A stretch of 64,000 bases of DNA from Ornithinimicrobium pekingense DSM 21552. GTDB taxonomy: Bacteria; Actinomycetota; Actinomycetes; Actinomycetales; Dermatophilaceae. Location: positions 248,001-312,000 of the forward strand of contig NZ_ATWJ01000010.1 of the NCBI RefSeq assembly GCF_000421185.1, in the 5' to 3' direction. Shown piece after piece: positions 55,908 to 58,900 of the stretch. The stretch's first letter is position 1; every line of letters begins with the position of its first letter. The position numbers were made by a program, and so were the translations under genes. The notes under the pieces were generated by a model that saw only the letters and a program-made list of their open reading frames with translations, was not told the origin of the DNA and made no database searches.

Positions 55908-58900
55908 TCAGCGGGTGGACGGGTCGGCGCCGTCGCGGCCGAACAGGTCCAGGGCGGCCGCGTGCTCCTGCAGCGAGGCGACGCTCAGCGGCCCCGCGCG
56001 CATGGCCTCGATGCCGAGGACGGCGACGGCCAGCTGCTGCACGGTGGTGATGATGGGCTTGTCGAGGCTGGTGGTCGCCGCCCGGATGGCGTAACCGTCC
56101 GCGCGCGAGTCCCGCCCCGACGGGGTGTTGATCACCATGTCCACCTCGCCGGCCGTGATGCGGTCGACGATGGTCGGCTCACCCTCGGGCCCGGGGCCGT
56201 CGCTGTGCTTGCGCACCACCTCGGCGGGTATGCCGTTGCGGCGCAGCACGTCCGCGGTGCCTGCTGTCGCCACCACCGTGAAGCCCAGGTCGACCAGGCG
56301 CTTCACGGGGAAGATCATGGAGCGCTTGTCGCGGTTGGCGACCGACACGAACACCGTGCCCTGCGTGGGCAGGCTCGAGCCGGCGCGCAGCTGGCTCTTG
56401 GCGAAGGCCGCACCGAAGCCCGCGTCGATGCCCATGACCTCACCTGTGGACCGCATCTCGGGGCCCAGGATGGAGTCGATCGCCTGGCCGGTCTGGGTGC
56501 GGAACCGGCGGAAGGGCAGGATCGCCTCCTTCACGGCGAAGGGCGCGTCGGCGGGCATGGCGCCGCCGTCGAGATCGCGCGGCAGCACTCCTTCGTCGCG
56601 CAGCTCGGCGACGGTGGCCCCGAGCATCACCCGGGCGGCGGCCCGGGCCAGCGCCACCCCGGTCGCCTTGGCGACGAAGGGGACGGTGCGGCTGGCGCGC
56701 GGGTTGGCCTCCAGCACGTAGAGCACGTCCTGGGCGAGCGCGAACTGGACGTTGATCAGCCCGCGCACCCCGATGGCGTCCGCCAGCCGGCGGGTCGCCT
56801 CACGGACCTCCTCCAGCTCGCGCCGCCCCAGCGTGAAGGGCGGCAGCACGCACGCCGAGTCGCCGGAGTGGATGCCGGCCTCCTCGATGTGCTCCATGAT
56901 CCCGCCGACGTAGAGGTCCGTGCCGTCGAAGATCGCGTCGACGTCGATCTCGACCGCGGTGTCCAGGAACCGGTCCACCAGGACCGGGTGCTGCGGGGAG
57001 GCGTGGGTGGCCCGCCCCACGTAGGCGGCGAGGGTGTCGTCGTCGTAGACGATCTCCATCCCCCGGCCGCCCAGCACGTAGGAGGGACGCACGAGCACCG
57101 GGTAGCCGATCTCGTGCGCGACCCCGAGGGCCTCCTCCACGGAGAAGGCGATGCCGTGCCGCGGCGCGGACAGACCGGTCTCGGCCAGGATGCGGCCGAA
57201 GGCGCCGCGGTCCTCGGCGAGGTGGATGGCCTCCGGGGAGGTCCCGACGACCGGCACCCCCTCCGCCTTCAGCGCCGCGGCGAGTCCCAGCGGGGTCTGG
57301 CCACCGAGCTGGACGACGACCCCGGCCAACGGGCCGGCCTGGCGCTCGGCGTGCACGACCTCGAGGACGTCCTCCAGGGTGAGCGGCTCGAAGTAGAGCC
57401 GGCTGGAGGTGTCGTAGTCGGTGGAGACCGTCTCGGGGTTGCAGTTGACCATCACGGTGTCGAAGCCGTGCTCGCGCAGGGCGAGCGAGGCGTGGACGCA
57501 GGAGTAGTCGAACTCGATGCCCTGGCCGATGCGGTTGGGCCCCGAGCCCAGGATGATGACGGCCGGCCGCTCCCGAGGCGCCACCTCGGTCTCCTCGTCG
57601 TAGCTGGAGTAGTGGTAGGGGGTCAGGGCCACGAACTCCCCCGCGCACGTGTCGACGGTCTTGTAGACGGGCCGCACGCCGAGCGCGTGCCGCACCCCCC
57701 GCACCACGGACTCCGAGAGCCCGGTCAGCTCGCCGATCTGCGCGTCCGAGAAGCCGTGCCGCTTGGCGCGGCGGAGCAGCTCGGGGGTCAGCCGACCGCC
57801 GGCGGACGCGCGGGCGTGGGAGCGCACCTCCTCGGCGACCTGGTTGAGCAGGGCGATCTGGTCGAGGAACCACGGGTCGATGCCGGTCGCCTCGTGCACC
57901 TCCTGGACCGAGCACCCTCCGCGCAGGGCCTGCTGCACGAGGACGAGGCGCCCGTCGGTGGGGGTGCGGGCCTGGTCGAGGAGGGCGCGCGCCATACCCG
58001 CCGACGGTGCCTCCTCCTCCCGCCAGTGGAAGGAGGAGGACGAGCGCTCGACCGACCGCAGCGCCTTCTGCAGCGCCTCGGTGAAGTTGCGGCCCAGGGC
58101 CATCGCCTCGCCGACCGACTTCATGGTGGTCGTCAGCGTGGGGTCGGCGGCGGGGAACTTCTCGAACGCGAACCGCGGCACCTTGACCACGACGTAGTCC
58201 AGGGTCGGCTCGAACGCCGCCGAGTACCAACGGTCAGCCTCGCGCAGCTCCTCGCCGGAGGCGGTCCGGGGGGTCCCCGGGGGGCGAAGCCCCCCGGACG
58301 AGGTGATGTCGTTGGGGACCTCGTCGAGGGTGTAGCCCAGCGCCATCTTGGCGGCGATCTTGGCGATCGGGAAGCCCGTGGCCTTGGAGGCCAGCGCCGA
58401 GGAGCGGGAGACGCGGGGGTTCATCTCGATGACGATGACCCGTCCGTCGGCGGGGTTGACGGCGAACTGGATGTTGCAGCCGCCGGTGTCGACACCGACC
58501 TCGCGGATGACGGCGATGGCGATGTCGCGCAGCTGCTGGTACTCCACGTCGGTCAGGGTCATGGCCGGAGCGACCGTGATGGAGTCCCCGGTGTGCACGC
58601 CCATCGGGTCGAGGTTCTCGATCGAGCACACGACCACCACGTTGTCGGCGTGGTCGCGCATGATCTCCAGCTCGTACTCCTTCCAGCCGAGGATGGACTC
58701 CTCCAGGAGCACCTCGGTGGTCGGGCTGTCCTGCAGCCCGGCGCCGGCGATGCGGCGCAGCGTCTCCTCGTCGTGGGCGAAGCCCGAGCCGAGCCCGCCC
58801 ATCGTGAAGGAGGGCCGGACCACGACGGGGTAGCCGAGGTCCTCGACCGCGGCCAGGACCTCGTCCATGGTGTGGCAGATCGAGGAGCGGGCGACCTCCG

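Follow-up and report, generated by a model that had tools for sequence, protein, structure and literature searches.

Palindromic repeats that lie in frame within protein-coding genes are best known from Rickettsia and some other Gram-negative bacteria. In the parts available to us, PMC3733652 assigns RPE-4 and RPE-6 of Rickettsia to the CGTC REPs, a class that, with these two families included, has no known transposase. The same parts report that about the same site is used in recB of two Xanthomonas and mention untagged REP-like repeats in M. tuberculosis and others; the phyla they name for the GTAG and CGTC families do not include Actinobacteria. Our literature search, which covered mostly open-access publications and few subscription journals, found no earlier report of in-frame palindromes in Actinobacteria, and the initial annotation of the DNA described here likewise knew of none for this group. 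Judged from sequence comparisons, the element that we describe seems to furnish proteins of one actinobacterial genus with small additional loops.

The window, the whole stretch of 64,000 nucleotides of Ornithinimicrobium pekingense DNA that was analysed, harbors the features collected in Table 1. The carB reading frame has no internal stop codon, and residues 1-425 of its product match E. coli CarB structures (E 9.8e-229), aligning to E. coli residues 1-403. The initial annotation had counted about 22 extra residues after the PNDIT block, and the alignments bear this out: there is a net gain of 22 residues as compared to E. coli CarB, between T340 and A368, and of 23 as compared to the short loop of the congeners, the corresponding CarB stretch being 45 versus 22 residues long. 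Short alleles have four residues, xxTP, between PNDIT and the A-[AS]-FEP block, where the loop stands in O. pekingense. The earlier placement of the insert at 58240-58325 overlaps with the loop but is shifted into the conserved PNDIT side.

Table 1. Features of the carB and rpsA regions, in window positions.
Feature	Position	Strand	Basis or detail
carB, carbamoyl-phosphate synthase large subunit, 1137 aa	55908-59321	-	ORF; NF003671 1583.5 bits (cut-off 599)
Extra CarB loop, residues 341-367 (27 residues)	58221-58301	-	alignment to congeners and E. coli CarB
Palindromic element of carB: hairpin, second C-tract and small second hairpin CGCCTCCGGCG	58253-58301	-	sequence reading
Perfect hairpin CCGGGGGGC-GAA-GCCCCCCGG, 9-bp stem	58277-58297		GAA loop on +, TTC loop on -
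Alternative 10-bp pairing	58264-58299		58264-58273 with 58290-58299
Non-coding double-hairpin copy behind the rpsA stop	8768-8824	-	hairpin A 8800-8822, hairpin B about 8776-8792

Both the perfect hairpin and the alternative pairing claimed earlier were located in the DNA of the carB loop. By itself, the carB hairpin is weak evidence, near chance for its composition and only modestly unusual. Folding of the coding strand gave a z-score of -1.87, with 9 of 200 shuffles folding equally well, and that of the other strand a z-score of -0.92 (37 of 200), while a stem of at least 9 bp arose in 13 of 1000 shuffles of the loop. Hairpin strength was rejected as proof of function, because folding z-scores in sequence of such composition are weak and equally long stems turn up in shuffled loops. 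Elsewhere in the window there are other long perfect hairpins of unrelated sequence, with stems of 15-16 bp and a terminator-like appearance (15602-15634, 15683-15717 and 45128-45160). A search of the whole window for Rfam RNA families at gathering score returned one tRNA and no known RNA family at the element. The strong evidence is the repeat family, not the single carB hairpin.

To describe this family we searched a sample of 31 genomes of Ornithinimicrobium with Serinicoccus, that of O. pekingense included, with a strict pattern in which CCCCCG comes no more than 12 nt after the core GGGGCTYYGCCCC. The O. pekingense genome has nine copies as compared to none for the reversed-pattern control, and the genus has 84 places in 19 of the 31 genomes as compared to one for the reversed pattern, with 0-11 copies per genome. 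An independent stem pattern (GGGGGGC-NNN-GCCCCCC, stems of at least 7 bp) gave 53 places in 20 of the 31 genomes, its reversal three. Read on one strand, the loops of these stems are GGA or GAA in 43 of the 53 places, GCA in five and others in five. Loops of the GNA type are unusually stable in single-stranded DNA; since the copies are related, their prevalence here is a hint and does not amount to a test. A more exact pattern, with ACGCC after the element, matched two copies, both in O. pekingense, and was dropped as a family definition since it skips carB itself, which has CCGCC at that place. In a sample of the phylum the core pattern occurs in 26 of 396 genomes, O. pekingense included, with four matches in total for the reversed pattern; some of the likeness may therefore be convergent. 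The carB palindrome belongs to this family, whose copies are dispersed through the genus, some of them non-coding and others in frame. The element described earlier for carB does belong to a real family, but this is spread across the genus and not confined to O. pekingense. Its core may be written as G(n)-C-TYC-G-C(n) and, after a short spacer, a further C(n)-G. Base pairing often extends beyond this core. A second hairpin akin to the CGCCTCCGGCG of carB also follows copies L048 (non-coding) and L055 (narJ tail); here and below, L numbers denote loci and G numbers genomes of the sample.

Several further observations were made around the copies. In 12 of 79 copies, for example L048, L056, L064, L072, L104 and L115, the core is preceded at 15-17 nt by a GTATG[ACG] box, often GTATGC.GTC; this box occurs in 149 of 14712 background windows of 30 nt (about 1%) and on the downstream side of 2 of the 79 copies. 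LepA of G015 has GCATAC without a hairpin. The box may be a part of the element or reflect a target preference. Tandem arrays are found in frame in L113 (protoporphyrinogen oxidase of G001, period 51 nt) and L115 (NuoI of G001, 45 nt), and in apparently non-coding sequence in L078 (G007 C8:29188-29442), L083 (G003) and L097 (G009), with periods of about 46, 45 and 41 nt. A second hairpin family, GCTCGCTSCGCTCGC/GAGCTCGC..GCGAG, occurs near several copies, such as L014, L049, L076, L077, L081, L082 and L107; it has 13 matches in the copy loci, and GCTCGCTSCGCTCGC is absent from the 64-kb window.

The initial annotation had related the carB hairpin to the intergenic hairpins behind rpsA, and a copy of the same family indeed stands at the rpsA stop codon. 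GGGGGCTCCGCCCCCGTGCACCCCCG follows directly after the stop of an ORF recognised by eye as RpsA from its S1-type repeats, and the module there folds with a z-score of -4.48, reached by none of 200 shuffles. It is closely similar to the in-frame insert in the biotin carboxylase gene of G009: the two align over 51 columns with two mismatches and two one-base gaps, at a score of 39 as compared to at most 18 in 300 mononucleotide shuffles. With 6 nt ahead of the core taken as the reference point, the distance to the stop codon is at most 10 nt for 24 of 41 gene ends, versus 4 of 42 for gene starts, and these 24 close ends span -1 to 4 nt. Within 120 nt of the 57 non-coding copies, L084 included, a gene end lies beside 39 and a gene start, called by a looser test than the ends, also beside 39, with a start alone beside 13 and neither beside 5. 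Only tight contact favours gene ends over starts. Four consecutive T directly behind the stem, or the mirror of this arrangement, occur in only 1 of 74 copies. At the commonest tight site, directly behind the stop codon, a copy probably serves as a hairpin terminator or as a protector of the 3' end; ending or protecting transcripts is the likeliest role of the non-coding copies.

The initial annotation had also advised a search for other in-frame copies in coding sequences, and we found that other enzyme genes of the genus carry them. Coding status was judged with a codon-usage model trained on the window, for which the same open frame was required on both sides of a copy. Of the 84 places, 80 non-identical copies were examined, the carB copy of G002 and identical array units being left out. 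Ten of the 80 passed on both sides in one frame, three of the ten in carB. Five further in-frame copies were recognised by eye, in the biotin carboxylase and the E2 linker of G014, the protoporphyrinogen oxidase and the NuoI tail of G001, and the NarJ tail of G000; L084, whose spacer is short and different, was left out of this list. The hosts include CarB, HyuA, LepA, biotin carboxylase, IcmF and more. They were assigned to families by NCBIfam and Pfam, many of the genes being cut by the locus ends: LepA, protoporphyrinogen oxidase and NarJ score above an NCBIfam cut-off, the best NCBIfam matches for IcmF, biotin carboxylase, NuoI and 2-oxoacid dehydrogenase E2 fall below the respective cut-offs, and Hydantoinase_A and an FAD oxidoreductase were assigned by Pfam.

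Orthologues with an empty site exist for CarB and for three other hosts. The LepA hairpin is present in G023 and G030 only among the 30 loops read (all genomes but G029, which was not fetched), and empty orthologues include G010, G011 and G028. This GTPase-domain loop (L217-L246) varies in length between species, and 28 of the 30 loops read are without the hairpin. A close biotin carboxylase gene is found in eight genomes, where the site is empty in G005 and occupied by an intact double hairpin in G009, a single hairpin in G023, partly decayed inserts in G007, G014 and G018, and decayed forms in G012 and G019. Among six close HyuA orthologues the element is present in G000, G002 and G025 and absent from G013, G027 and G001. 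The arrays in G001 give four tandem units of 17 residues in protoporphyrinogen oxidase and three of 15 residues in NuoI. In the C-terminal tail of NuoI the element stands at the same place in two species, as a single copy in L012 (G000) and threefold in L115 (G001).

In CarB the long loop has a patchy distribution: it is present in 13 of the 31 genomes, O. pekingense included, and the insert is absent from the other 18, where 15 short loops were read directly and those of G005, G007 and G009 were deduced from hit spacing. Among the 13 insert-bearing genomes the forward hairpin is intact in six, with a slip of one base in G021, and decayed in two (G016 and G018), while five are without the family hairpin. 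An alignment of CarB from relatives had been recommended earlier, with an insert present in all of them without the palindrome named as the outcome that would speak against the proposal; the insert is in fact missing from those 18 genomes, and six others have the hairpin intact. In Ornithinimicrobium cerasi (L119), which is outside the 31, the element lies reversed in the same CarB loop, and the right arm of this reversed copy is similar to the corresponding stretch of the sister genome G016. As a separate case, the CarB loop of G019 (L026), one of the five without the family hairpin, has an unrelated 8-bp palindrome, GAGTGGCT-CGCA-AGCCACTC, with one as long in 21 of 1000 shuffles; the loop behaves as if attracting or tolerating palindromes in general.

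The ends of the loop also differ. FEP is preceded by YSAA or YSSA in each of the 14 long alleles read, and by TPAS in each of the 15 short alleles read from the genus; simple insertion into the short allele as it stands today therefore does not account for the switch, and the short alleles are unlikely to be simple deletions. In a tree of the flanks with 31 rows (28 of the genus, O. cerasi and two outgroups; loci L018-L047 and L119), long and short alleles are intermixed, with at least seven changes. A single clade of the 14 long rows was rejected (p-AU 4.7e-77), as was one of the genus's 15 short rows (p-AU 9.9e-6); support is poor for 5 of the 28 inner branches. Between Serinicoccus chungangensis and its neighbour G030, identity is 97% over the 60 bases on each side of the loop, and the loops themselves differ, with the insert in one and not in the other. 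We prefer to read this mix of alleles as an exchange of very small tracts between species.

Pairing of the arms is kept while bases change. Of 73 copies (L084, by eye in a Rho-like N-terminal region, is part of this set), 59, 56 and 58 have a Watson-Crick pair at positions 2, 3 and 4 of the stem extension beyond the core, while 200 shuffles in which arms were re-paired among copies gave 30, 30 and 24 on average and at most 39, 38 and 37. Within the eight CarB orthologues with a forward element, two of them decayed, six cells changed on both sides, a number reached by none of 500 shuffles, and the covariation score falls when the pairing partner is slid. Counted by pairs, changes on both sides are seen in two, a number that 159 of 500 shuffles reach. 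Such pairing would be expected alike from selection on the hairpin, from copying of other elements or from template-switch correction.

We think it likely that carB holds a single copy of a GC-rich palindromic element that is dispersed at low copy number in Ornithinimicrobium/Serinicoccus and commonly stands behind stop codons and occasionally in frame in permissive loops, where it would be translated and decay. From time to time, and in one orientation or the other, a copy would arrive in a loop of a protein gene that permits it. The carB element has no stop codon in any of the six frames, so that an insert of suitable length could simply be translated, as a loop rich in Gly, Pro and Arg. The initial annotation had proposed that the carB insert is translated; its frame is open, which is what suggests translation. 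The CarB loop is presumably made and tolerated as a surface loop, and copies within genes are probably tolerated passengers that turn into ordinary loop sequence by decay. In carB the loop may then have become an exchangeable allele, long and ending in YSAA or short and ending in TPAS, scattered among species. From the distribution and orientation of the copies we infer that the element moves; it might do so as a single-stranded DNA hairpin, or through template switching with another copy as the source. A REP-like family seems to be spreading, and no Y1 transposase was detected in the 31 genomes. Our belief is about evenly divided on the wider proposal that such a family keeps colonising the same few loops (CarB, LepA, biotin carboxylase and HyuA) in either orientation and in single, double or tandem form, that its palindromes decay into new protein loops and that the long and short CarB loops are exchanged between species as small cassettes.

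The CarB loop could also be an old, fast-evolving indel in which template switching, by perfecting imperfect inverted repeats, produced the palindrome on the spot, with no arrival of an element. This would fit the inserts that lack the family hairpin (5 of 13) or have a half-decayed one (G016 and G018), the unrelated palindrome of G019, the resemblance of the right arm in O. cerasi to G016, and the compensatory changes among CarB orthologues, which are what template-switch correction would give. We consider this origin rather unlikely, as unlinked copies have sequence in common that includes the second C-tract outside the hairpin, and biotin carboxylase shares a whole double-hairpin module with a non-coding copy. 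The same both-side changes in the CarB stem agree with a hairpin that is selected within the reading frame as a regulatory signal of carB, acting in transcription pausing, attenuation or mRNA stability. Such a role is improbable in view of the 18 genomes without the insert, the five more without the family hairpin, and O. cerasi, where strand and position differ.

That the copies are ordinary terminator-like hairpins and GC-rich simple sequence, alike by convergence, would account for the many copies directly behind stop codons and for the similar cores elsewhere in the phylum sample. This is very improbable: copy counts lie far above the reversed-pattern controls, loops read GGA or GAA on one strand in 43 of the 53 places, double-hairpin modules recur in coding and non-coding sites, and copies in frame need no terminator. 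Hairpins of such strength are hard to sequence in general, which might point to an artefact of assembly or sequencing in GC-rich DNA; with intact or partly decayed in-frame carB copies in eight genomes, including the public record of Serinicoccus chungangensis, and an open frame in each, this is hardly credible. If a mobile family of coding palindromes is indeed at work, it would provide nature with a continuing supply of new protein sequence drawn from non-coding hairpins. In the many sequenced species of the actinobacterial genus the same loops can be compared in intact, decaying and empty form, so that questions that are hard to address in Rickettsia, such as how elements move, what a loop costs and whether it is useful, become testable by comparison and gene replacement.

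Among known systems, intrinsic terminators are also GC hairpins directly after stop codons, but the Ornithinimicrobium family has the T-run in the single copy noted above and occurs inside reading frames as well. As to MITEs, the LepA, HyuA, CarB and biotin carboxylase loops, compared empty versus filled, are too diverged beside the element for a target-site duplication to be read. Some large genomes of the same class, which we guess to be Streptomyces, also have the core pattern; the repeated GGGGCTCCGCCCC-type hairpins of that genus presumably have a near-identical core hairpin followed by a short C-tract, and the examples listed from the large-genome group mostly have a shorter spacer, of the CCGGACCCCCG type. 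The untagged REP-like repeats of M. tuberculosis, which are known to us by their mention in the available part of PMC3733652, are likewise palindromic repeats in an actinobacterium.

GTAG REPs and REPINs resemble the family in being small dispersed hairpins, often behind genes and sometimes paired, arrayed or inside genes, and the close placement behind 3' ends is found here too. According to the part of PMC2817692 at hand, REPs usually exceed 100 copies per genome, unlike the low copy number of the Ornithinimicrobium family. A profile search for the Y1_Tnp/RAYT transposase (PF01797) gave no match in the 31 genomes, as compared to matches in 5 of the 14 control genomes, that of E. coli among them, and mobilisation by RAYT was rejected for the genus on this basis. 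Reading of the flanks of 78 copies gave no GTAG tag common to them next to the hairpin. The element thus fails two tested defining features of GTAG REPs, RAYT and tag. Of the mobile REP-like palindrome proposed by the initial annotation, the dispersed family with in-frame copies stands, mobility is suggested by distribution and orientation, and the strict REP identity falls.

The family also differs from the CGTC REPs in that no CGTC tag is common to all copies, the GTATG[ACG] box being followed by CGTC in some of the 12 copies that have it and most copies lacking it, and in that the same loop is used in both orientations. The use of one site in two species has a precedent in the recB genes of Xanthomonas, as reported in the part of PMC3733652 available. 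As compared to the RPEs of Rickettsia, the Ornithinimicrobium family belongs to another phylum, is GC-rich and has a G-C-C layout with a second C-tract. The comparison in principle with the Rickettsia coding palindromes, made at the outset, holds in that one family has both in-frame and intergenic copies: in both groups short palindromes lie between genes and in frame inside genes, with no dedicated transposase known (for Rickettsia as CGTC class, in the same part of PMC3733652). By analogy of layout, and short of a placement in the CGTC class, the element would work like the coding palindromes of Rickettsia.
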